From contig JAFSNG010000019.1 of the NCBI GenBank assembly GCA_017447515.1, positions 1 to 36,231 of the forward strand: 36,231 nt of DNA. Direction: 5' to 3'. The position numbers were made by a program, and so were the translations under genes. Source of the stretch: Prevotella sp. (lineage in GTDB: Bacteria > Bacteroidota > Bacteroidia > Bacteroidales > Bacteroidaceae). A model generated the notes under the pieces. It ran no database searches, was not told the DNA's origin, and worked only from the letters and a program-made list of their open reading frames with translations. Positions 7,489 through 29,565 of the stretch are shown piece after piece; positions within the stretch are counted from its first letter, which is position 1; each line of letters starts with the position of its first letter.

Positions 7489-7520
7489 TTTGGTACTTTG
7501 TTTGCTTTTTCGTACCTTTG
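7489..7520 (+). promoter_or_regulatory. Promoter of the GH28-GH105 gene
   Basis: TTTG at 7489-7492 and TACCTTTG at 7513-7520 are separated by 20 bp, matching both Bacteroidetes -33 and -7 elements exactly. The 5' UTR to ATG 7551 would be about 25-30 nt. Confidence 0.85.
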
Positions 7521-7550
7521 CAAGCAGAACTACTAGAACAAATAAGAATT

Positions 7551-10247
7551 ATGAAGAGATTCCTACAAACAGTGATGCTTCTCACCGTTGTCGCTATGGC
7601 CGTTCAGGCTAAGGGTTGGAACGACCAGGAGTACAAGCAGATTGAGCAGAGCATCCGCCTGCCGCAGTTCGCTGATAAAGCGTATGTGATTACCAAGTAT
7701 GGTGCCAAGACCGACAATCCGGCTGCCAAGAATCAGAAAGCCATCCAGAAGGCTATCGACAAGTGTTCGCAGAAGGGCGGTGGACGCGTCGTTGTGCCTG
7801 CCGGGCAGAAGTTCCTCACCGCTGCCATCCAGTTGAAGAGTGGTGTCAACCTCGTCGTCGAGGAAGGTGCCGTGCTGGAGTTTGCCTTCGAGCCCGAGCT
7901 CTATCCCATCGTGCCGACGCGCTGGGAGGGTCTCGACTGCTGGAACCTCTCACCGCTGATTTATGCCTATCAGGCCCGTGATATAGCCATTACTGGCAAG
8001 GGCACCATCGACGGCGGCGGCTCGAACGAGACGTGGTGGCCGTGGTGCGGCAACAAGCGTTTTGGCATGAAGGAAGGCGGTATTGCCCAGAATCAGGGCG
8101 CCCGCGCCCGTCTGTTGCAGTATGCCGAGGACGGTGTGCCTATGGACGAGCGTCGCTTCGGTCCTAAGGATGGTCTTCGCCCGCAGATGATTAACCTGAA
8201 CCAGTGCGAGGGTATTCTCATCGAGGACGTTACGCTGTTGCGCTCGCCGTTCTGGGTCATTCACCCCTTGCTATCGACCGATATTACCGTGCGTGGCGTA
8301 CATATTAATAATGATGGCCCCAACGGCGACGGTTGCGACCCCGAGTCGTGCGACCGCGTGCTCATCGAGAACTGCTATTTCAATACTGGCGACGACTGTA
8401 TCGCCATCAAGAGCGGCCGCAACAACGACGGTCGCGAGGGTGGTCAGGGCAAGTATGCCGGACGTGCGTCGAAGAACATCATCATCCGCAACTCGAAGTT
8501 CAACAATGGTCACGGCGGCGTGGTCATCGGCTCTGAGATTAGCGGCGGCTGCCAGAATGTCTACGCCCACGACTGCGAGATGGACTCTCCGTCGCTGGAC
8601 CGCGTGCTGCGTATCAAGACAAACTCCTGCCGCGGGGGCATTGTCGAGAACATCAATATGCGTAACATCAGCGTCGGCCAGTGCGGCGAGGCCGTGCTCA
8701 AGATCAATACCGACTACGAGCCCCGCGAGGTTTGCTGTCGCGGTTTCTATCCCACCGTCCGCAACGTCACAATGGAGAACGTCACCTGTAAGAAGTCGAA
8801 GTACGGTGTGATGATTGTAGGCTACGACGACCCCAAGCTGGCTTATACCGTCAACAACATCACCGTGCGCAACTGCCGCTTCGACGGCGTCTATAGCAAG
8901 CCCATCCACCAGACTGGCCTTGCGCAGGACGTTACCTACGACAACCTCTTCATCAATGGTTCCCTCGTTTTGCAGGACAAGCCCTACAAGCACTACTCCG
9001 AGTGGCTGACGTATAGCGAGATGCAGCGTGTGCCGAATAGTTATTTGCTCGATTTCTCGACGAGTCCGAAGTGGAGCTATGTCATGGGCATCGAGCTCGA
9101 AGGCATGCTCGATACCTACCTCTGCTATGGTGGCGAGGCCATCCGCAAATACTGCCAAGAGTACACCGACACGATGATTTATGCCGACGGCAACATCCGC
9201 GGTTTCGACATTCTCGACTACAATCTCGACAACATCCGCACGGGTCATTTCGTTACCCGCATGTACGAGAACTGGCCCGAGGCGAAGAACCTCAAGGCCA
9301 TGCAGCTGATGATGAAGCAGTTGCAGGACCAGCCCCGCACCATTGTTGATAAGGTGTTCTGGCACAAGGCCATCTACGCCTATCAGGTGTGGCTCGACGG
9401 CATCTTCATGGGTCTGCCGTTCCGCGTCCTCACCGCCCCGATCACGTTGAACGTTGATAAGTCAAAGGTCAAAGGTCAAGGGTCAAAGGTTAACGTTCAA
9501 AGTATCTATGATGATGCCGTGAACCAGCTGAAGATTACCTACGAGCGCACGCTCGATCCCAAGACTGGCCTGAATCGTCACGCCTACGACGAGACGCGCA
9601 ACGCCTTCTGGGCCGATAAGGAAACGGGTTTGTCACAGCACTGCTGGGGTCGTGCGCAAGGTTGGTACACGATGGCGCTGATTGAAGTGCTGGACGCGCT
9701 GCCCGACGACTATGCCCGCAAGCAGGAAGTCGTGGAGTTGCTGGAGAAGGACTTCGACGCCATCCTCAAGTGGCAGGACAAGGACAGCGGCGTATGGTAT
9801 CAGGTGATGGACTCCCCGGGTCGTGAGGGAAATTACCTCGAGAGCACCTGTTCGGCCATGTTCACCTACGCACTGTTGAAGGCATATCGCAAAGGATATG
9901 TCGGCGAAAAGTACCGCGATGCTGGTATCAAGGCCTACAAGGGCATGATCAACAAGTTCATCCGCGTCAATGCCGACAAGACTATTTCGCTCACCGAGTG
10001 TTGCAGCGTCGCCGGTCTTGGTCCCGCCGAGACACCTGAGGTCGTTGCTGCCATGAAGAAAATCAACCCGAAGGGCAGCGTCAAGGAAAACCGCCGCCGC
10101 GACGGCAGTTACAATTACTACCTCTCCGAGCCCATCCGTGACAACGATGCGAAGGGCGTAGGCCCCTTCATCTGGGCTTCTCTCGAAATGGAAATGCTCG
10201 GCTACGACACCGACTCCGGCTACAGTCTTAACGTCAAAAAGAAGTAA
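7551..10247 (+). CDS. Secreted GH28 polygalacturonase-GH105 unsaturated glycuronidase fusion
   Basis: This 898-residue bifunctional pectin enzyme begins with a signal peptide (residues 1 to about 21, ending QAKG). Residues ~45-470 form a GH28 right-handed beta-helix with the family motifs NGDGCDP (~258-264), GDDCIAIKSG (~280-289), GHGGVVIGS (~320-328) and RIKT (~354-357). Residues ~500-890 form a GH105 (alpha/alpha)6 domain with the VWLDGIFMG motif containing the likely catalytic Asp (~616) and SQHCWGRAQGWY. GH28 cleaves galacturonan or rhamnogalacturonan; GH105 removes the unsaturated uronate that a pectate lyase leaves, fitting the PL1 gene next door. ATG 7551 was chosen because it follows the promoter and starts the signal peptide; an upstream TTG overlaps the -7 box. 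A heptamer repeat interrupts the GH105 domain at residues ~632-649. Confidence 0.93.
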   Translation: MKRFLQTVMLLTVVAMAVQAKGWNDQEYKQIEQSIRLPQFADKAYVITKYGAKTDNPAAKNQKAIQKAIDKCSQKGGGRVVVPAGQKFLTAAIQLKSGVNLVVEEGAVLEFAFEPELYPIVPTRWEGLDCWNLSPLIYAYQARDIAITGKGTIDGGGSNETWWPWCGNKRFGMKEGGIAQNQGARARLLQYAEDGVPMDERRFGPKDGLRPQMINLNQCEGILIEDVTLLRSPFWVIHPLLSTDITVRGVHINNDGPNGDGCDPESCDRVLIENCYFNTGDDCIAIKSGRNNDGREGGQGKYAGRASKNIIIRNSKFNNGHGGVVIGSEISGGCQNVYAHDCEMDSPSLDRVLRIKTNSCRGGIVENINMRNISVGQCGEAVLKINTDYEPREVCCRGFYPTVRNVTMENVTCKKSKYGVMIVGYDDPKLAYTVNNITVRNCRFDGVYSKPIHQTGLAQDVTYDNLFINGSLVLQDKPYKHYSEWLTYSEMQRVPNSYLLDFSTSPKWSYVMGIELEGMLDTYLCYGGEAIRKYCQEYTDTMIYADGNIRGFDILDYNLDNIRTGHFVTRMYENWPEAKNLKAMQLMMKQLQDQPRTIVDKVFWHKAIYAYQVWLDGIFMGLPFRVLTAPITLNVDKSKVKGQGSKVNVQSIYDDAVNQLKITYERTLDPKTGLNRHAYDETRNAFWADKETGLSQHCWGRAQGWYTMALIEVLDALPDDYARKQEVVELLEKDFDAILKWQDKDSGVWYQVMDSPGREGNYLESTCSAMFTYALLKAYRKGYVGEKYRDAGIKAYKGMINKFIRVNADKTISLTECCSVAGLGPAETPEVVAAMKKINPKGSVKENRRRDGSYNYYLSEPIRDNDAKGVGPFIWASLEMEMLGYDTDSGYSLNVKKK
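9444..9499 (+). repeat. Heptanucleotide satellite inside the GH105 domain
   Basis: Eight consecutive 7-bp units in perfect register: ACGTTGA, ACGTTGA, TAAGTCA, AAGGTCA, AAGGTCA, AGGGTCA, AAGGTTA, ACGTTCA. They encode a Lys/Val/Gly/Ser-rich loop (NVDKSKVKGQGSKVNVQ) just after the VWLDGIFMG motif. Eight units are 56 bp, so the gene stays open only because of flanking phase; adding or losing one unit would frameshift the GH105 domain. Confidence 0.85.
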
Positions 10248-18599: not shown

Positions 18600-19100
18600 G
18601 TGAAAAAGTTTATGATGGCTGCAGTTGCCTTAATCTGCATGACAAGTGTGCTTACCGCCTGTGGTGATGACAATGATTCAAAAGGCGATAAGGAAATAAT
18701 TTGTGAATATGGTATTTTAACCGATATCGCCAGTTTTTCTTTCACGGGAAATGCTGAGGAAGGCAATCCCTGGAACAAAGTTGTGAATGATACCAACAAG
18801 AAGGTGAAAGAAATCTTGGCCAAATACTCTGGCTCATGGAGCGTCAAAGCCACCACGTCAAACGTGCAACAGGTTGTTGCGACCAATGATACCGAGGCAA
18901 AGCAAAAGGTTGAGGACATGAAATCAGAACTTAACAAGGTCTTTACAGACTTGGAGAGTCTGCAGTCAACGTACCCGGATGAATATATTCGGTACAAGAT
19001 TGTCGTCGTGGCTATGCATGATGTATCGGTAAGCGGTATTCTAAATGAAAGGGCCTTTATCGAAGAAGAAATCTATCTCAGCTTTGGAAATCTTGAATAA
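18600..19100 (+). CDS. Putative lipoprotein of unknown function
   Basis: This 166-residue protein begins with a lipoprotein signal peptide whose lipobox LTAC puts the lipidated cysteine near residue 21. The residues after it (GDDNDSKGDKE) are acidic, as in Bacteroidetes lipoprotein export signals, so surface exposure is possible. The rest is mixed alpha/beta without a recognised domain. The start is GTG at 18600, giving MKKFMMAAVAL; an ATG at 18612 would leave a shorter signal without the basic n-region, so GTG is preferred. It lies 29 bp after the secreted-protein gene and is probably co-transcribed. Confidence 0.75.
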   Translation: MKKFMMAAVALICMTSVLTACGDDNDSKGDKEIICEYGILTDIASFSFTGNAEEGNPWNKVVNDTNKKVKEILAKYSGSWSVKATTSNVQQVVATNDTEAKQKVEDMKSELNKVFTDLESLQSTYPDEYIRYKIVVVAMHDVSVSGILNERAFIEEEIYLSFGNLE

Positions 19101-19117
19101 AAAGAACCCGAGCTCAC

Positions 19118-19134
19118 AGAGGGGCTGACCCTCT
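19118..19134. other. Small GC-rich hairpin between convergent genes
   Basis: AGAGGG (19118-19123) pairs with CCCTCT (19129-19134) around a 5-nt loop. No T run follows on either strand. It lies 18 bp after the lipoprotein stop. Confidence 0.5.
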
Positions 19135-19154
19135 AATGATTGATAAAATGTCTC

Positions 19155-19182
19155 AAGCCCTGTTGCTTCGGCAATGGGGCTT
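19155..19182. terminator. UUCG-loop hairpin, probable shared terminator
   Basis: Symmetric stem: AAGCCC, TG, TTGC, loop TTCG, GCAA, TG, GGGCTT. The outer and inner stems are perfect and the loop is the stable UUCG on the plus strand. It sits between the convergent lipoprotein and LuxR-type genes. The T run is weak on both strands, so termination strength is uncertain. Confidence 0.6.
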
Positions 19183-19221
19183 TATGTGTGATCAAGGGGT
19201 CGGCAATTCGGACGACAGAGG

Positions 19222-19815
19222 TTAGATTTTGTTGATGTCGACGTAGCCGTGCATGACGGCGTAGATGGTGAGGGCGGAGACGCTGCGGAGGCCGAGCTTG
19301 TCCATGATGTTTTTGCGGTGGGTGACGACGGTGGAGAGGGCGATGTTGAGACGGTCGGCAATCTGCTTGTTGATATACCCCTGAACGATAAGGGCCATGA
19401 CCTCGATTTCGCGGTCGGAAAGGATTTTCTGTTGCAACACCTGAGGGGTAGGGGGCAGGTGCTGGCCTTGTCCGTGGGCGTGTTGTTCGAGCACGAGGAG
19501 CTGTCGGATGAGCTGCGGCTCGGGCTGGTTGATGCAAAGGGTGTGGAACTCGCTGGGCTGTGTGCTGTCGGAGAGCGAGAGGGTAAGCACAATGGTCTTA
19601 CGGCGTCGCTCGGCGAAATAGGCGCGGTTGGCGAGGACAATATCCAGGGAGACGAAATAGTGGGCGTAGCCGTCGGCATCGTTAGCCTCGAGTTCGGCGA
19701 GTGTGCCGAAGGTATCGACGGTGATGATGGGCATCATGTTAAGCAGCAACTGCTTAAGTCCCAAAACGGCGAGCGTGTTGGGGTCGATGATGGCTATCTT
19801 AGGACGGTGAACCAT
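19222..19815 (-). CDS. LuxR/NarL-type regulator with atypical receiver domain
   Basis: This 197-residue protein resembles a NarL-type response regulator. Residues ~1-80 look like a shortened receiver: Asp11 in IAIIDPNT represents the acidic pocket and Asp58 in VSLDIVL may be the phosphate acceptor, but the usual second acidic residue and the later Thr/Lys motifs are not clear. Residues 132-190 are a clear LuxR helix-turn-helix (LSDREIEVMALIVQGYINK, STVVTHRKNIMDKLGL). No histidine kinase is adjacent. It follows the alarmone synthetase with no gap (TAAATG), so it is probably part of the same signalling operon. It may respond to protein contacts rather than phosphorylation. Confidence 0.88.
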   Translation of the reverse strand: MVHRPKIAIIDPNTLAVLGLKQLLLNMMPIITVDTFGTLAELEANDADGYAHYFVSLDIVLANRAYFAERRRKTIVLTLSLSDSTQPSEFHTLCINQPEPQLIRQLLVLEQHAHGQGQHLPPTPQVLQQKILSDREIEVMALIVQGYINKQIADRLNIALSTVVTHRKNIMDKLGLRSVSALTIYAVMHGYVDINKI

Positions 19816-20916
19816 TTACCGTTTGACGTTCATGAATTCCAGGCGGCTGGCCTGTTCGATGACCATTTCGGCGAGGATCTCGTTCTGTGGCATCTTGCCG
19901 TTGATGGTGTCGAAGAACTGAACGAGGGACAGTCTGCCGCCCCCAGTCTTCAGCAGGTGGACTATGCAGAGGTTCTGCAGGCCGATGGTCTCGGCGAGGA
20001 TGTCGATGTCGGTGCTGCCCAGTTGGAACAGTGCCAACTGATAGGCATCGTCGAAATTGTTGCGCATGAGGCGTTCAACATCGCCGAGGGTGTTCATGCC
20101 TATGTGGCGCAGGGCTTTGAGGTAGGGCCACCAGGGTGCTTCGTGGAGCTCGGCCTGAGTGATGGCGGCTATCTTGCGGTTGAGCTTGTCGAACGGACGC
20201 TTGTCGAGATAGCTGCGGAAGGTGTCGAGGTCGAGTGGTACTTCCTCGAGCTGGCCGCTTTGTACGAGGCTTTGTGCGCGGCGGCGATAGTCGGTAATGG
20301 CGTTGCGGATGCGGCTGAACTCGTTGTCGGCGAGTTCGAGCATTCCTGCCAGTCGGCTGAGGTTGCGGTGGTATTCTAAGGGGGTTTCGATTTCGGACTT
20401 ATAGCCAATGTCGTGCTGGATGGCGGACCATACGTGCTGAAGGGCGGTACGCATCTGAAGCTCGAAGCGGATGTTGTTGAGTTCGGGCTTCTCGGGGTTG
20501 TAATACTGCTCCTTCGGCAGGCGGCAGATGTAGTGCAGCGAGTTGTAGCCGAAGCTGTCGAACTGGTGCATACGGCGCTTGTCGACGGAGTTGTCCCAGT
20601 CAATCTCGAACAGCACTTCTGCCATCGAGGCGATACGGTCGACGTCCTCGTTGTAGAACGTGATGATGCGCGCACCGAAAATATCGGTGATGTCGAGCAG
20701 CGAAGCGTATTTATGACCTTTCAGCCTGAGCTTTCCTGCCAGCGACTCTTCGGCCTTGATGCGCGACTCCATCGAGTTGACTTCAATGCCGCTCTGACGG
20801 ACTAGGGCTCCCAGCTTTTCCATGACCACACGTTGAAGCTCCTCGAAGAGCGGCTGCTTGTCGCAGTACTCTTCGAGAAGCATTTCACCATGTAGATCGA
20901 GTCCGTAATCTGTCAT
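19816..20916 (-). CDS. RelA/SpoT-domain alarmone synthetase without hydrolase domain
   Basis: This 366-residue protein should make (p)ppGpp or a related alarmone from GTP/GDP and ATP. The synthetase motifs are present: SRIKAEESLAGKL (~51-63), DIFGARII (~78-85), FGYNSLHYI (~122-130) and FELQMRT (~151-157) holding the E-Q-R set, then HVWSAIQHD. There is no HD hydrolase domain, TGS or ACT domain, so it is a small-alarmone-synthetase-like enzyme. About 180 C-terminal residues are helical and of unknown role; they may sense a signal or hold the complex together. It sits 6 bp after the STAS gene and directly before the LuxR-type gene, which links alarmone synthesis to the partner-switching module. 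Confidence 0.9.
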   Translation of the reverse strand: MTDYGLDLHGEMLLEEYCDKQPLFEELQRVVMEKLGALVRQSGIEVNSMESRIKAEESLAGKLRLKGHKYASLLDITDIFGARIITFYNEDVDRIASMAEVLFEIDWDNSVDKRRMHQFDSFGYNSLHYICRLPKEQYYNPEKPELNNIRFELQMRTALQHVWSAIQHDIGYKSEIETPLEYHRNLSRLAGMLELADNEFSRIRNAITDYRRRAQSLVQSGQLEEVPLDLDTFRSYLDKRPFDKLNRKIAAITQAELHEAPWWPYLKALRHIGMNTLGDVERLMRNNFDDAYQLALFQLGSTDIDILAETIGLQNLCIVHLLKTGGGRLSLVQFFDTINGKMPQNEILAEMVIEQASRLEFMNVKR

Positions 20917-20922
20917 ACGGAA

Positions 20923-21225
20923 TCAGCGAATGTCAAAGAGGTTGAAGAAACCAGTCATCATGAACACCTTCTTGATTTCATCGTTGATGTGTTCGATGAT
21001 TACTTTGCCACCCTTTGCTGACGCCTCCTTGCGGATGGTCAGGAACAGACGAAGACCGGAAGAGCTGATGTACTCGAGGTCCTTGCAGTCGAGGGTGATT
21101 TGCTTGTCGGCATTCTCCAACAGTGGGGCGATCTCCTGCTGAGCCTTGACGGCAGCAGGGGTGTCCAAACGCCCACTGACAGTGGCGACGTAACCGCCAT
21201 CTTGTTCGTTTATTTCAAAAATCAT
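20923..21225 (-). CDS. STAS-domain anti-sigma factor antagonist-like protein
   Basis: This 100-residue single-domain protein matches SpoIIAA/RsbV-type STAS proteins: an N-terminal strand pair (VATVSGRLDTPAA), ITLDCKDLEYI, and the phosphorylation loop SSSGLRLFL with Ser56 at the expected acceptor site. The Asp usually before the two serines is Ser here. In partner switching such a protein is phosphorylated by an RsbW/SpoIIAB-type kinase and dephosphorylated by a SpoIIE/RsbU phosphatase; both activities appear fused in the protein encoded at 25129-27537. It lies 6 bp before the alarmone synthetase gene. A TAATATTG sequence at 21231-21238 (minus strand) is a weak -7 candidate. Confidence 0.93.
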   Translation of the reverse strand: MIFEINEQDGGYVATVSGRLDTPAAVKAQQEIAPLLENADKQITLDCKDLEYISSSGLRLFLTIRKEASAKGGKVIIEHINDEIKKVFMMTGFFNLFDIR

Positions 21226-21240
21226 TGTTTCAATATTACT

Positions 21241-21310
21241 AATTAGAAATTCACAATTAGAAATTCACAATTATCAATTCACAATTATCAATTGTCAAAT
21301 GTCAATTACT
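21241..21310 (-). repeat. Ten-unit AT-rich heptanucleotide satellite
   Basis: Ten units in register on the plus strand: AATTAGA, AATTCAC, AATTAGA, AATTCAC, AATTATC, AATTCAC, AATTATC, AATTGTC, AAATGTC, AATTACT. The array fills the STAS/lipoprotein spacer, and its last unit contains the lipoprotein stop codon (21306-21308). The same AATTNTC unit recurs at 29531-29565. Confidence 0.92.
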
Positions 21311-22109
21311 TGATGATGGCCTTGCGGGCGTCGTTAATCTGATCCTTGGCCTTGGCAATCTGATCCTTCAGCTCGGCAACGGTGGTAGCGTTAAGAACAT
21401 CCAGGGGAGCGAGGGCCTTGGCAACGGGCTCGATGTCGGGATCGTACTCAGAGAGACGGTTGATGGCGTCGAGCACGAGGATGATGCGGAAGGTCACGTT
21501 GGAAGCAGCCTCGTCGGTGAAGGTGCTGAGGTACTTGTCGGGATTCTGGTTGGCCAGATAGAGTTGCTCAGTCAGTGCACCGGCAGCCATCTGCCAGAAG
21601 AAGTTGATGCGAGCGTTCTTCTCCATAGCGTCGTAGAGGGTGTTAGAGGTCTCGTAGAGCGTGTTGGTGTCGTCAATGACCTTGAATGAAGGATCGTTGA
21701 TGTCAGCCACGAGCTTGGTGATGGCCTTGTCGTAGTCCTCGGTAGGCATTTCGTAGAGCTGGGCAATCTTCTTGTCAACGTTCAGCGCGCTGAGGATGCG
21801 ATACTTCTCAGCCAGTGTGGTAGCCTCCTCGGCAACACTCGGGTTCAGCAGATAGTCGGGCTTCACCTGCTTCTCTTCCTTGGTCAGCTGGATGCCGTCG
21901 TCGCCTTCAGACAGGAAAGGCAGCTGCTTGAGTTTACCAATCTCGGAAGCAATGCTGTCGAAGTGCATCTTGATGCTGGCCTCGATCTGCTGCTGTTCGA
22001 AACTCTTCAGGCTGTCGGCATTCTCGGCTGCCTGCTCACTCTTCTTACCGCTACATGCAGCGAAAACAACGGCTGCAAATGCAATAGCTAAAACAGATAA
22101 TTTCTTCAT
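21306..22109 (-). CDS. Putative lipoprotein of unknown function in the signalling cluster
   Basis: This 267-residue protein has a lipoprotein signal peptide with lipobox FAAC (Cys ~19) followed by SGKKSEQAAENADS. The mature protein is rich in Lys, Asp, Glu and Leu and predicted helical throughout, with no recognised domain. A periplasmic sensor or scaffold would fit its place between the ABC transporter and the STAS gene, but this is inference from context only. It lies 49 bp after the ABC transporter gene and no terminator was seen between them. Confidence 0.82.
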   Translation of the reverse strand: MKKLSVLAIAFAAVVFAACSGKKSEQAAENADSLKSFEQQQIEASIKMHFDSIASEIGKLKQLPFLSEGDDGIQLTKEEKQVKPDYLLNPSVAEEATTLAEKYRILSALNVDKKIAQLYEMPTEDYDKAITKLVADINDPSFKVIDDTNTLYETSNTLYDAMEKNARINFFWQMAAGALTEQLYLANQNPDKYLSTFTDEAASNVTFRIILVLDAINRLSEYDPDIEPVAKALAPLDVLNATTVAELKDQIAKAKDQINDARKAIIK

Positions 22110-22158
22110 TTCTTTTTTAATTTTGAGTTATTAATACTGTTAATTGTTTTTTGTCTCG

Positions 22159-25050
22159 TTAATTCTCTGATTTTCGGATGTATCGCCCGGGGCAGTCGGT
22201 GAGCAGCAGCACGATGGCAATGATGCTCATGAGCAGCAGCACGGCCATGTTGAACCACAGCGTCTTGACGTGCCACTGGCCGACGATTTTCTCACTGCTG
22301 TAGAACGGAGCGCGACCTACGGTGCTCTGAGGTGTCAGGAAGATCAGTCCGGTGCGGGGTACAGCATAATTATCAATAATCTCGAGCATACGTCGCTGGT
22401 CGGCACCGATGACGCAGTCCTCCAGCTTGATGTTATGGTTCTGGCGCTTCAGGTCGAGCAGCGATTCCTTGCCGTGTTCGCGGACATAGCGCGACGTGAG
22501 GGCGTCGGCCTTCAGCGAAATGTCGTTACTGCGCTTGGAGAGCAGGTTCTCGGCCTCCTTCATGTAGTCGTAGAGCGACTGGTAGGATTCGTCGCCGCTG
22601 TAGGGCTTCATGCCGCAATAGTCAGTGACCAGCGGCAGGTTGGTGCGGATGACAGCCATGTGATCTTCCTTGGCTTCCTTGCCTCGCTTTTGCTCGTCCT
22701 TCATGGTCTCGAGCTGCGACTGCAGTTCGTAGAGCAGGCCCATGTTGTAGTATTGCGTCTCGTACTTATCCTTGTCGAGGGCGAAGAAGTTGCGCTCGTA
22801 TTCATTGTCGGTGAACGACGTGACGGCCAGTGCCTCGTACGACCAGCGCGAGGGGATGAGGTCGCCTATGACCGGAACGTTACCCGTCGTGCTCTTGGGC
22901 GTCAGGTCGGAGAAGCTGACTACCAGTCCGCAGAGCAGAATCTGTGGAATGAGCAGCATGGGGATGCTGATGTAGATGGCTACGATGGAGTTGAGACACT
23001 GCGACAGCAACAGTCCGGTGAGGTTTGCCAGGAAGGCGGTCATGAAGAGGATAAGCCACCACGTCCAGAAGAGCCCGTGCAGTCCCATGATGGAATTGCC
23101 GACAACGATGAACAGCAGTGTCTGGATGATGGAGACGAAGGCCATATAGACGATCTTCGACCAGATATAGCTGCCGTAGGACAGGTGTAGGAAACGCTCG
23201 CGTTTGAGCAGGGCGCGGTCCTTGATGATTTCCTCGGCACTTCCGATCATGCCCGTGAATGTTGCCACGATGACGGCCATGAAGAAATAGCTCACGAGGT
23301 TCTTGTTGTCCATGACGGTATAGCCCTCGGGAGGCGCATAGCGCGTGAGATAGGAGCAGACCACCGCCAGCAGGGGAGCCTGAAGGAGGGTGATGCAGAG
23401 ATATTGCACGTTGGTAATCTTCGTCTTGAAGTTACGGTGCAGGAAGATGGCGAACTGCTTGAGCACGCCGGGCTTCTTCTGGTCGGAAGGCGGTACGGTG
23501 CTGACAGCGGGTGCAGGCAGCTCGGGACGGTTCTTCAGATACAGCTCGTGCCACTCCTGCGGCGTCATCTTACGCTCGTCGGACACCTCGCCGTTGCTGT
23601 TGAGCCGCTTTTCGTCAATGATGTTCAGCACGATTTCGGGATTGACGTTGCCGCACATGGGGCAAGCGCTGGTCTCGGCATCGGCATAGTTGGCAGCCTC
23701 CTTGAAATAGGTGATGGCATCGATGGGGTTGCCGTCGAACACGGGATAGCCGCCACGGTCGAGCAGCCACAGGCGGTCGAAGAGCTTGTAGACGTCGCTG
23801 GACGGCTGGTGGATGTTGACAATGATGAGCTTGCCCTTCAGCGTCTGCTCCTTCAGCAGGTTGATGACCTTCTCGGTATCGGCTGACGACAATCCTGACG
23901 TGGGTTCGTCGAGGAAGAGCACAGCGGGCTCGCGGATGAGCTCCAAGGCAATGTTCAGACGCTTGCGCTGTCCGCCGGAGATGTATTTGTTGATGGCCGA
24001 ACCTGCTTTCAAATCCTTGACGGCATCCAGCCCGAGGTCTTTCAGCGTCTTCATGACACGACGGTCGAGTTCCTCGTCAGCCATGCCGGCAAAGCACAGC
24101 TTGGCGGTGAACCAAAGGTTCTGATAGACGGTGAGTTCCTCGATGAGCAGATCGTCCTGAGGCACGAAACCGATGAGCGCCTTAGCCTCTGGCTCGCTGA
24201 TGTCGTGGCCGTTGATAGTGATGGTGCCTTCCTGGGGTTTCATGCTGCCGTTGAGCAGTGACAGGAGCGTGGTCTTGCCCGTTCCGGAACCGCCCATGAT
24301 AGCCAGCAGCTCACCGTTATGAAGGGTGAAGCTGAGGTTGTGCATGCCATTGTCGCTATGGGGGAAACGGAAGGTGACATTGCGTCCGCAGAACTCTACG
24401 GCCTCTATCTTACGATCTGACTGGTCGTAGCAGCCGATGATAGAAGAATAATAGACGGGTTGGCCGTTCTTGCCTTTCAGCACGCTGCTCTGGAGCCATA
24501 CTTGATAGGAACCCGAAAGCACGGGAACATCGTTGAGCAGGACGGTGTCGTTGCCCATATAGGTGAACAGCAACAAGCCAGTGAAGGGGTCGAGCAGGGT
24601 CTTCAGCTGTCCGTCGAAACCCTCTAACTGGTGCATCATCACATGCTCTGTGGACTTGTTGTTGACGTAGTCCATGAAGATGTTGTACTGCTCGTCAGGG
24701 ATGTTAAACTGCTCGGCCATCGTCCGGAACATGGTGTCCGTGAAACCGTCGTCGTCGGCACAGAATTCCAGCAGACGCAGCAGCAACAGGGCTTTCTCCG
24801 TGTTGCGGATATCCGCCTGCAGGTTGGAACAGATGGACGTAACGGTGTCTTGGGTATTCAGGTCATCGGTCATCTCGTAGGCCATGCGCATATCGCTGTA
24901 GAGGTCCAGATAGAGGTCGATGTTCCTGATGCCGAAATGGTGGCGCAAATAGCTTACGAGCATTTCCTTTGCCCGCTCTTCGTCAACTTGCTCTACTTTG
25001 CCAAATAGTGCAAACAGACTAATAAAACTTGATAATATTACGTCAGTCAT
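22159..25050 (-). CDS. ABCG-type ABC transporter (ATPase-permease) with N-terminal TerB-like domain
   Basis: This 963-residue half-transporter has an ATPase followed by an ABC-2 permease. Residues ~20-135 are helical and acidic (LLRLLEFCADDDGFTDTMF), resembling a TerB-like domain. The ATPase has Walker A GGSGTGKT (~253-260), signature ISGGQRKRLN (~357-366) and Walker B VLFLDEPTSGLSS (~377-389), the ABCG/White order. A possible zinc motif CPMCG lies at ~463-467. Six or so membrane helices follow, with a large soluble loop before the last one. The substrate is unknown. ATG 25050 was chosen: the longer TTG start overlaps the -7 box TATATTTG. The position between the SpoIIE phosphatase and STAS genes suggests that it is part of, or controlled by, the partner-switching module. 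Confidence 0.9.
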   Translation of the reverse strand: MTDVILSSFISLFALFGKVEQVDEERAKEMLVSYLRHHFGIRNIDLYLDLYSDMRMAYEMTDDLNTQDTVTSICSNLQADIRNTEKALLLLRLLEFCADDDGFTDTMFRTMAEQFNIPDEQYNIFMDYVNNKSTEHVMMHQLEGFDGQLKTLLDPFTGLLLFTYMGNDTVLLNDVPVLSGSYQVWLQSSVLKGKNGQPVYYSSIIGCYDQSDRKIEAVEFCGRNVTFRFPHSDNGMHNLSFTLHNGELLAIMGGSGTGKTTLLSLLNGSMKPQEGTITINGHDISEPEAKALIGFVPQDDLLIEELTVYQNLWFTAKLCFAGMADEELDRRVMKTLKDLGLDAVKDLKAGSAINKYISGGQRKRLNIALELIREPAVLFLDEPTSGLSSADTEKVINLLKEQTLKGKLIIVNIHQPSSDVYKLFDRLWLLDRGGYPVFDGNPIDAITYFKEAANYADAETSACPMCGNVNPEIVLNIIDEKRLNSNGEVSDERKMTPQEWHELYLKNRPELPAPAVSTVPPSDQKKPGVLKQFAIFLHRNFKTKITNVQYLCITLLQAPLLAVVCSYLTRYAPPEGYTVMDNKNLVSYFFMAVIVATFTGMIGSAEEIIKDRALLKRERFLHLSYGSYIWSKIVYMAFVSIIQTLLFIVVGNSIMGLHGLFWTWWLILFMTAFLANLTGLLLSQCLNSIVAIYISIPMLLIPQILLCGLVVSFSDLTPKSTTGNVPVIGDLIPSRWSYEALAVTSFTDNEYERNFFALDKDKYETQYYNMGLLYELQSQLETMKDEQKRGKEAKEDHMAVIRTNLPLVTDYCGMKPYSGDESYQSLYDYMKEAENLLSKRSNDISLKADALTSRYVREHGKESLLDLKRQNHNIKLEDCVIGADQRRMLEIIDNYAVPRTGLIFLTPQSTVGRAPFYSSEKIVGQWHVKTLWFNMAVLLLMSIIAIVLLLTDCPGRYIRKSEN

Positions 25051-25065
25051 TTCTCTATTAAGTTG

Positions 25066-25073
25066 CAAATATA
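25066..25073 (-). promoter_or_regulatory. -7 box before the ABC transporter gene
   Basis: TATATTTG on the minus strand matches TAnnTTTG and lies 15 bp before ATG 25050. No -33 TTTG is seen. It implies that the ABC-STAS-RelA-LuxR genes can be transcribed independently of the SpoIIE gene. Confidence 0.6.
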
Positions 25074-25128
25074 CTTAAAATCTCAGACTAAGTTCTAATC
25101 GAAGTAGTTAAAAATCGTTAAATCGTAC

Positions 25129-27537
25129 TCAAACTATCTTTTTACGCAGTGTTAGGACGTTCTTTCCGTCCGTTCTTTCGTAATTAATGGAGTCCATAAT
25201 CTGTCTTACCAAGTGGATGCCAAGACCGCCGATAGGACGTTCTTCGGCAGACAATGTGGTGTCCACGTCACCCTTCGCCGTGGGGTCGAAAGGTGTACCC
25301 CAGTCGTTGATGACAATCTTCAGATACTGCTCGTTCGCCCTGGCCTCGATCAGGATATCGCCTTTCGTGCCGGCCGGGTAAGCGTAATCTATTACGTTAA
25401 CCACAGCTTCCTCGATGGCGAGGTTCAGACTCATGGTGAGCGACATGTCGAGACCGATGGTCTCACAAACTTCGTCGACGAAGGCCGCCAATTGGTGTAC
25501 CTCGTCAAGGTCATTTGTCAGTTTTAGACTGCGGTCCAGGCGCGTATTGTCGTCCTGTTCCTTGGAATACTGAATGGCGAGCATGGTCTGGTCGTCACTT
25601 TGTTCAGCATTACCTACAAAGTCATGTACAACTTTAGTCATATGTTCGATAAACTTGTCTGGTTTCCGTTCAGCCTCGCAGGCGGTGTCCAGGACGCGTT
25701 CTTCCTGGAATTGTTCGTGGCGCAGGTTTTCGGCCTCCGTCAGTCCGTCTGTATAGAGGAAAATGGTGGTCTGTGAGTTGATGATATCCTCCTGTGTGGT
25801 GAATTTCCAGTCGGGGTCGATGCCGACAGGAATATTGGGTTTGCACGGCAGGTGACCAATACCCACATTGCCTATTAATATCGGTTCGTCGTGACCTGCA
25901 TTCGTATAGCGCAGACGGCCTGTAGGCAGGTCGAGAACGCCGATGAACAGGGTGACGAACATGTTTGATTCGTTGTCTTCGGAAATGGATTCGTTGATGG
26001 CTGTCATGATGCGTGACGGCATTGCCTCGTGAGACGAGATAGTGCGGAACAGCGACCGCGTGACCGCCATGAGCAGCGAGGCTGGCACACCCTTTCCGCT
26101 GACGTCGCCGATGCAGAAGAACAGTTTCTCGTCGCGGATGAAGAAGTCGAACAGGTCGCCGCCAACTTCCTTGGCAGGCATCAGCTGGCCGTAGATGTCG
26201 ATATCGTCGCGGTCGGGGTAGGGCGGGAAGGTCTTTGGCAACATCGACATCTGGATGCTGCGGGCGGTCTGCAGTTCGCCCTCTATGCGTCCTTTGTCTT
26301 CGTTGACGGCCTTCGTTTCCTCAATCTGCTTCACCAATGACAGCTGCATGGTCTCGAACGAGTCACGCAGACGGCGCATTTCGTCTTTTGTCTTGATTTT
26401 GGGCAGTTCAGCGGTGAAGTTACCCTTGGCTATTTCGTCGGCAGAGGTCGTAAACTGCCTGATAGGCTTGGTCACCTTGCGCACGGCGAAATAGCAAGCC
26501 AGAACGATAATGCCGATACCAATGAAGGTGAGGACCCCCATGAATACCATGAAACTGTTCAGCAGCCACAGCAGTTCGCTTACGGGGAGTGTCATCACCA
26601 TCAGCCAGTCTGTACGCTCAATGCAAGCGGCAAACATCCATATATATTTTCCGTTCTTGTCTTCATAGATTTTGATCAGCTTTACGTCAGGACCTATTCC
26701 GAGAATGTCCTGGGCGAGTTTTGCCTTGCGCTTTTCTGATTCTTTGATGTCCTTGAAATAGTCTTTGAGTGAGGCTCTCATCACCAGACTCGAGTCGGGA
26801 TGAGCCACTATAGTGCCTTGGCGTGTGACAAGGAAACTGGTGAAATGGCTTTTGGCCTCATCGTCGAAGATATCCATGAAATTGTCATTGAAGGTACTGT
26901 CCGACTTCTGTCTCAGCGTTTCTATCCAGTCCAGCGACAGGTCGGCAGTATATACGGCATAAACCTCACTGCTGTCTTTGATGAGCGGCAGTGAGTAAGT
27001 AATCATCGGTATGTTTCCACCTCCTTCGTCTACGTATGGCTCCGACCAGTAGCCTTTCTTCAATTCCACGGGTTTCTTAAACCACTCTTTCTCCGGGTAA
27101 TTGTATGCCCGAGAGTTCAGCTGTGTGGTATGAATGCCCATGCTGGTGCGATAGGCATAGGGCGCATAGAGCTGTCCCTTCTTTGGCTCATAGTCAGGGT
27201 TAAAGGCAATGGCAGCTCCAATGATTTCGTCGTTCAACTTCAACATGTGCTGTACCGCAAAGAAAAGCATATCGTCCTGGTAGATGTTCTTTTTCGCTTC
27301 CGGCACATTGTTTCTGACCACAGCTTCCACATTCGTGAAAACGGTGTTCATCTTCTCGTTGGTAACCTCCATTGCAGCGCCAAACATGATTCCCAAGAGT
27401 GTCGCACCTACTATGTAAATGATGAAGAAAATAAGCCCAAGAATGAGTATGAGGCTAATGACAGTAGCCACCATGATGCGCCACGTCAGACGAGAGACAA
27501 TGGAGCGTGAAGGCCGGAAAATATTCAATAGACCCAT
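25129..27537 (-). CDS. Membrane sensor SpoIIE-type phosphatase fused to RsbW-like HATPase
   Basis: This 802-residue protein combines several modules. A first membrane helix lies at ~20-50, then a Cache-like extracellular sensor to ~310 (with PEKEWFKKPVELKKGYWSEP), a second helix at ~330-355 and a HAMP segment. After a coiled coil is a PP2C/SpoIIE phosphatase (ARSIQMSMLPKTFPP, AKEVGGDLFDFF, FCIGDVSGKGVPASLLMA) carrying the metal-binding Asp residues, and the last ~140 residues are a GHKL ATPase of the RsbW/SpoIIAB type (SLNLAIEEAVVNVIDYAYP, GGLGIHLVRQIMD). Phosphatase and kinase on one chain would set the phosphorylation state of the STAS protein encoded at 20923-21225. The gene has its own promoter and heads the minus-strand cluster. 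No sigma factor is adjacent. Confidence 0.93.
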   Translation of the reverse strand: MGLLNIFRPSRSIVSRLTWRIMVATVISLILILGLIFFIIYIVGATLLGIMFGAAMEVTNEKMNTVFTNVEAVVRNNVPEAKKNIYQDDMLFFAVQHMLKLNDEIIGAAIAFNPDYEPKKGQLYAPYAYRTSMGIHTTQLNSRAYNYPEKEWFKKPVELKKGYWSEPYVDEGGGNIPMITYSLPLIKDSSEVYAVYTADLSLDWIETLRQKSDSTFNDNFMDIFDDEAKSHFTSFLVTRQGTIVAHPDSSLVMRASLKDYFKDIKESEKRKAKLAQDILGIGPDVKLIKIYEDKNGKYIWMFAACIERTDWLMVMTLPVSELLWLLNSFMVFMGVLTFIGIGIIVLACYFAVRKVTKPIRQFTTSADEIAKGNFTAELPKIKTKDEMRRLRDSFETMQLSLVKQIEETKAVNEDKGRIEGELQTARSIQMSMLPKTFPPYPDRDDIDIYGQLMPAKEVGGDLFDFFIRDEKLFFCIGDVSGKGVPASLLMAVTRSLFRTISSHEAMPSRIMTAINESISEDNESNMFVTLFIGVLDLPTGRLRYTNAGHDEPILIGNVGIGHLPCKPNIPVGIDPDWKFTTQEDIINSQTTIFLYTDGLTEAENLRHEQFQEERVLDTACEAERKPDKFIEHMTKVVHDFVGNAEQSDDQTMLAIQYSKEQDDNTRLDRSLKLTNDLDEVHQLAAFVDEVCETIGLDMSLTMSLNLAIEEAVVNVIDYAYPAGTKGDILIEARANEQYLKIVINDWGTPFDPTAKGDVDTTLSAEERPIGGLGIHLVRQIMDSINYERTDGKNVLTLRKKIV

Positions 27538-27560
27538 CAGTTCTTAGCTTAATAACCCTG

Positions 27561-27568
27561 CAAAGATA
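27561..27568 (-). promoter_or_regulatory. -7 box of the SpoIIE/HATPase gene
   Basis: TATCTTTG on the minus strand matches TAnnTTTG, 23 bp before ATG 27537. ATTG at the -33 position, 21 bp upstream, is a partial match. Divergent from the promoter at 27611. Confidence 0.7.
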
Positions 27569-27610
27569 CGAATAATTCTTAACTAATGGCAATTTTTCAC
27601 AATTTTTTAT

Positions 27611-27618
27611 TACCTTTG
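27611..27618 (+). promoter_or_regulatory. -7 box of the basic-tail protein gene
   Basis: TACCTTTG matches the Bacteroidetes -7 element exactly, 26 bp before ATG 27645. No exact -33 element is visible upstream. Confidence 0.7.
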
Positions 27619-27644
27619 CACGAAATTTTTTCATTTAGACGCTT

Positions 27645-28337
27645 ATGAAGTTACAAAAATACATTGCAATTCTCGCTATTTTTACTTCTTTGACTGCTGT
27701 TCGCGCGCAGGAACATACCCGTTTCCTGGACCTGCCGCTCGACCTCACTCCCGAGGAAATCGTGGAGGCACTGGAGGACAAGGGACTGCAACAGGAGGAC
27801 CGTTACGAACTCTCCGGACGTATCGCGGGCCTTGACGTGTGGATGTATGTGAATGTGGGTAAGGATTCCACGAAAATCAACCATTTGCTGCTGACGTCGC
27901 AGCAACAGCAGGGCAATACGCAGCGCGACGACTATGTCGCCCTGCGCAAATGGATGCAGAAACACTACGGCGCCCCTACGTGGGAATCTACCGTCCGTTC
28001 TCACTCCTTCGCACGCTGGTATATAGGCTTCGACCGCGACATCGTGATGATAGCAACGGCCTCGGCGGGTGTTGAGATTTGGTTCTACGAGAATCACCAG
28101 CGTCGCAATATTGACTACTACGCCATTCTGAAATACTGTGAGCGCAATCCCGCTCCCGGCCTGCCCGTGATGTTTGCCCGCGACAATGTCACGTGGAAAA
28201 GCACGGGTGACACGTCGACGGTGAAGAAGAAAGCCGCTAAGCGCAATGTCCGTAAAGCTACTAAGAAAAAAGCCAAGGCAACGAAAAAGCGCCGTTCGAA
28301 GACCGCTAAGTCTAAGAAACAGCGCCGTAAGCGTTAG
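27645..28337 (+). CDS. Secreted protein with a very basic Lys/Arg tail
   Basis: This 230-residue protein has a signal peptide (residues 1-21, ending VRAQ). The globular part (~22-190) has mixed alpha/beta sequence and many aromatic residues; no domain is recognised. From residue ~194 to the end the chain is almost entirely Lys, Arg, Ala, Thr and Ser (KKKAAKRNVRKATKKKAKA), like the tail of histone H1 or some nucleoid proteins, although the signal peptide predicts export. The tail may bind nucleic acid, polysaccharide or the acidic cell surface; that is inference. It has its own promoter and terminator, so it is monocistronic. Confidence 0.83.
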   Translation: MKLQKYIAILAIFTSLTAVRAQEHTRFLDLPLDLTPEEIVEALEDKGLQQEDRYELSGRIAGLDVWMYVNVGKDSTKINHLLLTSQQQQGNTQRDDYVALRKWMQKHYGAPTWESTVRSHSFARWYIGFDRDIVMIATASAGVEIWFYENHQRRNIDYYAILKYCERNPAPGLPVMFARDNVTWKSTGDTSTVKKKAAKRNVRKATKKKAKATKKRRSKTAKSKKQRRKR

Positions 28338-28345
28338 TATAATGT

Positions 28346-28374
28346 CCCCAAGCCGATGCTTGGGGCATTTTTTT
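28346..28374. terminator. Bidirectional terminator between convergent genes
   Basis: CCCCAAGC (28346-28353) and GCTTGGGG (28358-28365) enclose CGAT; a T run follows on the plus strand and overlaps the stop codon of the minus-strand decarboxylase beta gene. Confidence 0.92.
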
Positions 28375-29530
28375 ACGATAGGAATCCGAGCAAAGCGCCC
28401 GCAGCAACGGCAGAACCGATGACGCCGGCAACGTTCGGCCCCATGGCGTGCATCAGCAGGAAGTTGTGGCGGTCGTACTCCAGTCCGAGGTTGTTCGAGA
28501 TACGTGCGGCCATCGGCACAGCACTCACGCCCGCATTACCAATCAGCGGATTCAGCTTCTTATCCTTCGGCAGGAACACGTTCATCAGCTTCACGAAGCA
28601 TACACCGCTCATGGTAGCGATGATGAAGGCTCCGGCACCGATGGCAAAGATGTAGATGGTGTTCATCGTCAGGAACTCGGAAGCCTGCGTCGAACAACCT
28701 ACCGTCAGACCCAACAGCATCACCACGATGTCGTTCAGTGCTGCACCGGCAGTCTTGGCCAGACGGGTGGTCTTGCCGCTCTCCTTCAACAGGTTGCCGA
28801 AGAACAGCATTCCCAGCAGAGGCAGACCGGACGGAACGATAAACGTCGTCAGCAACAGTCCCACGATGGGGAACAGGATGCGCTCCGTCTGCGAAACTTC
28901 GCGGGCAGGCTTCATCTTGATGAGGCGCTCCTTCTTGGTGGTCAGCAGTCGCATCAGAGGGGGCTGAATCAGCGGCACCAGTGCCATATACGAGTAGGCA
29001 CACACCGCAATGGCACCCATCAGGTTTGGTGACAACTTTGACGACAGGAAGATGGCCGTAGGACCATCTGCACCACCGATGATGGCGATACCGGCTGCCT
29101 GGTTGGGTTCGAAACCTAAGGCCAGCGCAAACATATACGCACCGAAAATACCAAACTGTGCGGCAGCACCGATAAGCATCAACTTTGGATTGGCCAGCAG
29201 TGCCGAGAAGTCCGTCATAGCACCAATGCCCAGGAATATCAGTGGCGGATACCAGCCTTGCCGCACACCCTGATAGAAGATGTTCAGCACGGAGTTGTCC
29301 TCATACAGTCCGATCTCCAATCCGGCATCGGCACGGAAGGGGATGTTGCCCAGTATGATACCCAGTCCAATGGGGACGAGCAGCAGGGGCTCGAAGTCCT
29401 TCTTGATGGCTAGCCAGATAAAGAAGGCACCCACTACTATCATGATAAGGTTACCTGCTGTCACGTTCGCAAACCCCGTGTACGTCAGGAACTCATTGAA
29501 GTTTTCTACGATGAAATTTGTAAATCCCAT
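28373..29530 (-). CDS. Na+-pumping decarboxylase beta subunit (OadB/MmdB family)
   Basis: This 385-residue integral membrane protein is the Na+-translocating subunit of biotin-dependent decarboxylases. Family landmarks are GIGAMTDFSALLANP, FGAYMFALALGF, the GGADGPTAIFLSSKL stretch carrying the conserved Asp and Ser that bind Na+, and NAGVSAVPMAARISNNLG near the end. The free energy of decarboxylation drives Na+ out of the cell. Closeness to mutA/mutB points to methylmalonyl-CoA rather than oxaloacetate, but subunit beta does not show the substrate. Start 29530 (MGFTNFIVENF) is preferred over a TTG inside the heptamer repeat. It is the last gene of the gamma-biotin-beta run. Confidence 0.93.
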   Translation of the reverse strand: MGFTNFIVENFNEFLTYTGFANVTAGNLIMIVVGAFFIWLAIKKDFEPLLLVPIGLGIILGNIPFRADAGLEIGLYEDNSVLNIFYQGVRQGWYPPLIFLGIGAMTDFSALLANPKLMLIGAAAQFGIFGAYMFALALGFEPNQAAGIAIIGGADGPTAIFLSSKLSPNLMGAIAVCAYSYMALVPLIQPPLMRLLTTKKERLIKMKPAREVSQTERILFPIVGLLLTTFIVPSGLPLLGMLFFGNLLKESGKTTRLAKTAGAALNDIVVMLLGLTVGCSTQASEFLTMNTIYIFAIGAGAFIIATMSGVCFVKLMNVFLPKDKKLNPLIGNAGVSAVPMAARISNNLGLEYDRHNFLLMHAMGPNVAGVIGSAVAAGALLGFLS

Positions 29531-29565
29531 AATTGTCAATTATCAATTATTAATTGTCAATTAAC
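29531..29565 (-). repeat. Five-unit AATTNTC heptanucleotide satellite
   Basis: AATTGTC, AATTATC, AATTATT, AATTGTC, AATTAAC on the plus strand. The array fills the entire spacer between the biotin-carrier and beta-subunit genes and includes the biotin-carrier stop codon (29561-29563). It is the same unit class as at 21241-21310. Confidence 0.88.

Follow-up and report, generated by a model that had tools for sequence, protein, structure and literature searches.

What does a partner switch act on when no sigma factor gene lies beside it? This question is raised by a contig from a Prevotella species (JAFSNG010000019.1, assembly GCA_017447515.1), which was analysed over a stretch of 36,231 nucleotides, here called the window. 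An open reading frame (ORF) check finds six co-directional genes on its minus strand at 19222..27537, the positions at which a first-pass annotation, made from the sequence alone, had placed them. They encode a membrane sensor, an ABC exporter, a lipoprotein, a STAS protein, an alarmone synthetase and a LuxR-type regulator (Table 1). The annotation proposed that the STAS protein controls the synthetase, the LuxR-type protein or the transporter instead of a sigma factor. Our comparison of related loci narrows this choice, and five of the genes probably form a partner-switching cassette that acts on a dedicated alarmone synthetase in the place of a sigma factor. The conserved linkage of STAS and synthetase genes, their rearranged orders and the frequent addition of a hydrolase gene favor the synthetase as the output. 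The LuxR-type regulator drops out and the exporter becomes an accessory of a minority of loci; any physical control of the synthetase by the STAS protein is putative.

Conserved association of the switch with the synthetase

Relatives of the synthetase gene were read with their neighbors at 164 loci, of which 134 are distinct after removal of 3 that lack a full synthetase and 27 with an identical synthetase core. A STAS gene was counted as adjacent if it lies on the same strand and at most 60 bp upstream of the synthetase gene, with an overlap of up to 20 bp allowed. Adjacent STAS genes are present at 96 of the 134 loci, in 83 of 117 clusters formed at 90% identity and in 45 of 70 formed at 75%. 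The proportion is 43/53 among loci from our second source versus 53/81 among those from the first; the second was ordered by how closely its members resemble the query alignment and is therefore more favorable for adjacency. Counting all genes in range, the 134 loci have STAS at 107, a kinase at 98, a SpoIIE phosphatase at 64, a SpoT-type hydrolase at 40, an ABC gene at 39, the lipoprotein at 36 and the LuxR gene at 35. All six classes of the window occur together at 18 loci (7 of the 70 clusters at 75% synthetase identity), so the six-gene cluster is neither a chance assembly nor an order unique to this strain. Within the same loci, 115 STAS genes are found in the 1,363 kb near the synthetase and none in the 666 kb more than 5 kb away.

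The order of the genes varies considerably. With P for phosphatase, K for kinase, S for STAS, H for hydrolase and SYN for synthetase, the commonest architectures are bare SYN (16 loci), PK-S-SYN-H (15), PK-abc-lip-S-SYN-lux, as in the window (14), PK-S-SYN (14), K-S-SYN (11) and abc-lip-K-S-SYN-lux (10). Other orders include H-PK-S-SYN, K-P-S-SYN-H, SYN-H-PK-S, SYN-H-K-P-S, K-S-H-SYN and SYN-PK-S. Because the order changes while the set of genes stays, a functional tie is suggested rather than an inherited block. A quick tree built from 98 synthetases has STAS-linked members in each of its three large branches. An open frame of 477 codons at G172 (L055) resembled a natural fusion of STAS and synthetase, and was rejected when the STAS was found to sit in another frame; no such fusion was seen among the loci read.

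Within the window's genus, the synthetase is distributed patchily: 112 of 299 genomes have it, a count that takes in the window itself and four matches that are weak and partial (30-33% identity). The genus search gave 120 matches; neighbors were read for 77 of these, the window included, and the other 43 are mostly lower scoring. In a sample of the order, 8 of 295 genomes carry it, again with the window (6 of 184 genera). A phylum sample yields 13 of 395 including the window, and the other 12 (L191-L202) are weaker matches to more distant relatives elsewhere in the Bacteroidota, most of which align over the synthetase part only. A scan of species genomes reveals at least 577 relatives. The best 80 of these are labeled Prevotella, Prevotellaceae, Paludibacteraceae, Bacteroidaceae, Candidatus Colimorpha, Colivivens, Cacconaster and other Bacteroidales or Bacteroidia. 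The closest named relatives are Prevotellaceae assemblies whose synthetases are 92-93% identical to that of the window, and many named records come from ruminant guts. The cassette, which has five genes in the window, is a real conserved module of gut and rumen Bacteroidales.

Partner-switch proteins

Judged by their motifs, the parts of the switch are intact: a STAS protein with an acceptor serine, a GHKL kinase of the RsbW/SpoIIAB type and a SpoIIE/PP2C phosphatase. Pfam supports the earlier view that phosphatase and kinase share one chain with the sensor, with scores of 159 bits for SpoIIE (PF07228), 106 for MCP-like_PDC_1, 94 for HATPase_c_2 (PF13581) and 44 for HAMP. NCBIfam matches to this protein are weak, with 61 bits for SiaA over residues 219-654 (cut-off 700) and 47 bits for RsbW (cut-off 145). 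Among the loci, both the N-box and the G-box are present in 99 of 105 HATPase ORFs, and all three metal-binding motifs of the SpoIIE phosphatase in 67 of 73 SpoIIE ORFs. The STAS assignment of the first-pass annotation stands, and its acceptor residue, Ser56, moves by one position. In our alignment, Ser55 coincides with the acceptor serine of RsbV and SpoIIAA, the residue phosphorylated in those proteins. Position 55 is serine in 117 of 117 STAS proteins (96 adjoining a synthetase and 21 others), and position 56 is Ser, Gln or Thr. Tandem STAS genes, two different paralogues in a row, occur upstream of the synthetase at L045, L053, L116, L121, L127 and L134.

A search with six recognizable sigma proteins encoded in the window genome located a sigma-like ORF within 5 kb at one of the 134 loci (L094), and another lies 8.5 kb away at L110. 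None is near the window cassette, as the annotation had noted, and the STAS gene is thus not one that is conserved beside a sigma factor. A cognate sigma output is absent nearby; an unlinked sigma factor may still be a target.

The alarmone synthetase

The synthetase contains a RelA_SpoT domain above the curated cut-off of Pfam and no hydrolase (HD) domain, in agreement with its first description as a hydrolase-less enzyme. Both sequence alignment and Foldseek place it closest to the solved small alarmone synthetases (SAS) SAS1/RelQ, SAS2 and RelP. Residues R52, K54, S58, K62, D78, R83, Y124, H128, E152, Q154 and R156, the catalytic and ATP-binding residues, are invariant in 46 of 46 aligned synthetases, and the ExQxR motif is kept in all 134. 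The family thus shares the fold and catalytic residues of RelP and RelQ, and differs from them in three respects, one of which is its tie to a partner switch. Unlike compact SAS proteins of about 200-250 amino acids, it has about 150 additional conserved residues at the C-terminus, which are predicted to form a compact helical domain (predicted local distance difference test, pLDDT, mostly >90). No relative of this domain was found by sequence or, in the PDB, by fold. Also, at the position just ahead of the GY loop at which three aligned relatives have Arg/Lys-Asp, the 46 aligned members invariably have Lys113-Arg114; the nature of the acceptor nucleotide should therefore not be presumed.

The hydrolases near the synthetase may bear on the product. 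The HD protein of L087, the sole one tested, resembles SpoT in its hydrolase region (TIGR00691 positions 1-122), and all three HD-type motifs sought are present in 35 of 42 hydrolase ORFs, some of the remaining ORFs being fragments. An adjoining hydrolase would favor a soluble 3'-pyrophosphorylated nucleotide as the product of the synthetase. The source genome, which is 61% complete, holds two matches to RelA/SpoT homologues (RSH) in long frames (740 and 786 amino acids); a separate hydrolase like that of L087 was not seen in this incomplete genome, which shows just a long RSH match.

Two additional companions were observed. A TIGR02172/APH-type kinase is in range at 32 of the 134 loci, once on the other strand (for example, L157:10086-10922). 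Many clusters that do not belong to the window's branch have it placed between the synthetase and the hydrolase, and at 6 loci kinase and hydrolase are fused. A protein of the tyrosine-phosphatase family occurs at 21 of the 134 loci (one is a fragment on the other strand) and often comes next.

The extra domain and the hydrolase also suggest a different role, in which the synthetase is a growth-arrest or phage-defense enzyme like toxSAS or CapRel, a pyrophosphokinase that acts on tRNA or adenosine nucleotides. The switch would then trigger the enzyme, and the hydrolase would serve as its antidote. CapRel likewise joins a C-terminal domain to its SAS domain. Small alarmone hydrolases (SAH), one of which may be the partner here, often accompany toxic synthetases, according to PMC9765508. 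The patchy distribution would fit such a role, and PADLOC gives a match to PDC-S33 that covers the synthetase domain at 50 bits. However, the nearest enzymes by sequence and fold are of the RelP/RelQ type, which rank best in Foldseek, with CapRel at ranks 40, 41 and 44 of the 50 matches listed. No resemblance of the C-terminal domain to that of CapRel was found with Foldseek. Furthermore, the neighbors are signaling genes, and control by a sensor, phosphatase and kinase is atypical of toxin-antitoxin modules. We therefore regard a toxic or defensive function as quite unlikely. Membership of the whole cassette in a defense system was set aside, as PADLOC gave weak matches only.

The insertion site and its neighbors

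The LuxR gene was originally included in the system, to which it is almost fused: the gaps of 6 bp between STAS and synthetase genes and 0 bp between synthetase and LuxR genes are as first reported. However, the N-terminal part of the LuxR protein is found in 247 of 298 genomes of the genus, and is far commoner than the synthetase. We read 70 LuxR loci, comprising the 30 best and 40 hand-picked from genomes without a synthetase match, so that the fractions are not population frequencies. Upstream of the LuxR gene are STAS and synthetase genes at 15 loci, STAS without synthetase at 6, the beta-subunit gene of a sodium-pumping decarboxylase within 350 bp and no cassette at 19, and neither at 30. 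The last group includes 5 loci with fewer than 750 bases upstream and one at which the beta gene lies at a distance of 765 bp. Where synthetase and LuxR genes occur together, the beta gene is on the far side of the cassette at 23 of 35 loci, as it is in the window.

The LuxR gene is absent behind 62 of the 96 adjacent STAS-synthetase pairs, and in 57 of these 62 the stretch that was fetched has no beta gene either. The link between STAS and synthetase is therefore not tied to one insertion site. The LuxR gene is probably an insertion-site neighbor and not a core part, with the cassette sitting between two old neighbors. On the simplest reading, the 0-bp gap is a property of the site. The assignment as a GerE-type protein is upheld, and the LuxR protein as a core output was rejected on the basis of these frequencies, namely its occurrence across the genus, the 19 loci without a cassette and the 62 pairs without it. 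It is possible that the gene is cotranscribed with the cassette. This regulator is often located behind the decarboxylase beta gene and might control the operon of that gene. Variable partner-switch cassettes occupy the space between the two.

The exporter and lipoprotein are an accessory pair found in a minority of loci and gained in the window's group. Each of the 36 loci with the lipoprotein has an ABC match, and the 3 ABC matches without it are perhaps generic ABC proteins. This pair and the LuxR gene are mostly confined to the window's branch of the synthetase tree, whereas STAS-synthetase pairs occur in every major branch. The exporter had been called a TerB-like ABCG-type transporter. 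Its ATPase (residues 243-391) and ABC-2 membrane part (538-749) agree with an ABC exporter, and its N-terminus is of no recognised family, with no credible Pfam match even at an E-value of 5, so the TerB label was dropped.

How the switch might act

We infer that the STAS protein controls the synthetase directly, and the phosphorylation, sign of control, product and ligand in the following scheme are likewise conditional. The Cache domain would read a periplasmic ligand or stress, and HAMP would relay the signal to the SpoIIE-type phosphatase further along the protein. The phosphatase would strip phosphate from Ser55 of the STAS protein, and the RsbW-like kinase domain would restore it. One of the two states, perhaps the unphosphorylated one by analogy with SiaC, would then engage the synthetase, probably via its unique helical C-terminal domain, and alter how much of a (p)ppGpp- or (p)ppApp-type nucleotide it makes. 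The SpoT-type hydrolase that many relatives have in the same cluster would remove the product. A direct gate of this kind, in which the Cache domain sets the state of Ser55, the STAS protein toggles the synthetase via the C-terminal domain and the hydrolase resets the system, would allow several groups of Bacteroidales to make (p)ppGpp or (p)ppApp independently of the ribosome. We give this specific scheme about an even chance.

Several observations weigh against it. The STAS-synthetase complex that the first-pass annotation suggested modeling was not obtained. AlphaFold2 was given a single chain from the relative L026, read through the STAS stop codon, with 32 paired and 28 single rows. The STAS half folds as RsbV and the synthetase half as SAS, joined by a disordered linker, and the predicted template modeling score (pTM) is 0.58, in a model that has no interface scores or positive control and from a method that can miss complexes. 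Because the window synthetase alone scores 0.73, and 0.73 x 366/484 = 0.55 is about the value expected from unlinked parts, no docking is predicted. Also, the presence of STAS changes 14 times on the tree of 98 synthetases, and at 20 of the 134 loci STAS, kinase and hydrolase genes are all missing from the range. Related STAS genes occur elsewhere in 16 of 16 genomes of such partner-less loci, which cover 16 of the 20. In at least six cases they are in kinase-STAS-LuxR clusters with no synthetase between (L244, L246-L249 and L252), so a STAS protein of this type has other uses too. Finally, of the 6 among 70 LuxR loci at which the window's site holds STAS without a synthetase, four have the ABC and lipoprotein genes (L281, L282, L297 and L304); a second STAS output is therefore possible at that site.

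The lack of predicted docking would suit an arrangement in which the RsbW-like kinase takes hold of the synthetase, as it would of a sigma factor, and keeps it inactive until unphosphorylated STAS draws the kinase off, so that STAS never touches the synthetase. This is the classic logic of RsbW and SpoIIAB (PMC11418112), and the kinase is frequently in range with its motifs intact. However, STAS and synthetase genes occur without a kinase at 11 of the 134 loci, as judged in the fetched stretches, some of which are short. No locus among the 134 clearly pairs kinase and synthetase without STAS, and of two candidates, L154 ends at the kinase with its contig and L172 has a STAS gene further on. 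These counts suggest that STAS is the nearer partner of the synthetase. Moreover, the kinase of the window is part of a membrane-bound receptor chain, and this tether would complicate the sequestration of a soluble enzyme. Kinase sequestration is thus an unlikely explanation.

Alternatively, the target of STAS might be the exporter, the LuxR-type regulator or some protein encoded elsewhere, with the synthetase as no more than a coregulated neighbor. Clusters of kinase-STAS-LuxR and of PK-ABC-lipoprotein-STAS-LuxR without a synthetase are consistent with this idea. So are two more partner-switch loci of the window genome (L224 and L225, on contigs C39 and C68), which have neither a synthetase nor a sigma gene alongside in the stretch read. 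Judged from translations, one of them has a histidine-kinase-like protein behind STAS, and the other is among genes for alpha-glucan enzymes, on a contig whose nearest sigma match is approximately 13 kb away. In contrast, the 62 STAS-synthetase pairs without LuxR, the persistence of synthetase and hydrolase with the switch across different gene orders, and the restriction of the exporter pair and LuxR largely to one branch make the idea rather improbable. An output through the synthetase remains our preferred explanation.

Genes and signals in the window

Coordinates of the cassette and its flanks are collected in Table 1.

Table 1. Cassette genes and flanking features of the window
Feature	Position	Strand	Evidence or remark
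Membrane sensor, 802 amino acids: PDC/Cache-HAMP-SpoIIE PP2C phosphatase-RsbW-like HATPase_c_2 kinase in one chain	25129..27537	-	Pfam, NCBIfam
ABCG-type exporter half, 969 amino acids; accessory	22159..25068	-	Pfam ABC_tran + ABC2_membrane, NCBIfam
Lipoprotein, 267 amino acids, function unassigned, accompanies ABC gene; accessory	21306..22109	-	No Pfam family; NCBIfam matches weak only
STAS protein, 100 amino acids, anti-sigma-factor-antagonist type	20923..21225	-	Pfam STAS (PF01740) 62 bits; TIGR00377 74 bits (cut-off 53)
Predicted phospho-acceptor Ser55 codon of STAS gene	21061..21063	-	Codon 55 counting from start at 21225
Stand-alone alarmone synthetase, 366 amino acids: SAS-type domain ~47-210, helical C-terminal domain ~220-366	19816..20916	-	RelA_SpoT PF04607 55 bits (cut-off 27)
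LuxR/GerE-type regulator, N-terminus unrecognised; insertion-site neighbor, probably outside the system	19222..19815	-	GerE 68 bits
Sodium-pumping decarboxylase beta subunit; other flank of insertion site	28373..29539	-	OAD_beta 499 bits

Promoter and terminator scans of positions 18900-27800 gave counts close to the shuffle level, and no terminator-like site was found on the minus strand in this range. One minus-strand match to a sigma-70-like promoter (11/12) is at 21270-21298, between the lipoprotein gene and the STAS gene; judged from this match, the STAS, synthetase and LuxR genes might own a separate promoter. Promoters of Bacteroidota are usually unlike the sigma-70 consensus. A Bacteroidetes-type promoter pattern has 4 matches across the window and none inside the cassette.

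Between the beta gene and the cassette, on the plus strand (27645-28337), lies a gene for a secreted-looking protein of 230 amino acids that belongs to no Pfam family and whose C-terminal tail is strongly basic. Elsewhere in the window, an ORF at 7518-10247 joins GH28-like and GH88 domains beside a pectate-lyase-like gene, which suggests enzymes of pectin breakdown in a single chain.

Relationship to known systems and implications

The nearest precedent in overall design is SiaABCD of Pseudomonas aeruginosa, which also comprises a sensor phosphatase (SiaA), a kinase (SiaB), a STAS-like switch (SiaC) and a second-messenger synthetase as output (SiaD). According to PMC8457831, unphosphorylated SiaC binds and activates SiaD, and phosphorylation blocks binding. 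The same paper presents SiaD as a GGDEF diguanylate cyclase and SiaC as a DUF1987 protein with a Thr acceptor, whereas the window has a PF04607 output and a PF01740 STAS protein with a predicted Ser acceptor. Unlike SiaA and SiaB, its phosphatase and kinase are joined in one chain. HsbA-HsbD of P. aeruginosa and BgrV-BgrR of Sinorhizobium meliloti are similar in that STAS governs a second-messenger synthetase; SiaC, HsbA and BgrV are grouped in that source as STAS-type proteins controlling diguanylate cyclases (PMC8457831), whereas the output in the window is an alarmone synthetase. The phosphatase, the STAS protein with its acceptor serine and the GHKL kinase are homologous to the parts of RsbU-RsbV-RsbW-SigB and SpoIIE-SpoIIAA-SpoIIAB-SigF in Bacillus subtilis, except that the sigma output is missing. 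No description of a STAS protein or partner switch governing an alarmone synthetase was found in the literature searched, which consisted of titles and abstract openings and included few subscription papers and no preprints. A 2011 survey of RSH proteins lists Rel and RshB and no SAS for 8 Bacteroidia genomes (PMC3153485). Synthetases of the present type may have been overlooked in it.

Most of the inputs known for alarmone synthesis act through the ribosome (RelA/Rel), the binding of metabolites, or the transcription of SAS genes. If our interpretation is correct, the cassette would represent a new way of switching on the alarm signal, one that lets signals from outside the cell influence growth in Bacteroidales of the gut and rumen. 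It would also hint at the role of some of the partner switches in Bacteroidales that lack a sigma factor. Moreover, the principle of SiaC and SiaD would extend from cyclic diguanylate to alarmones, as a new class of output for a known design in which a partner switch acts on a second-messenger synthetase.

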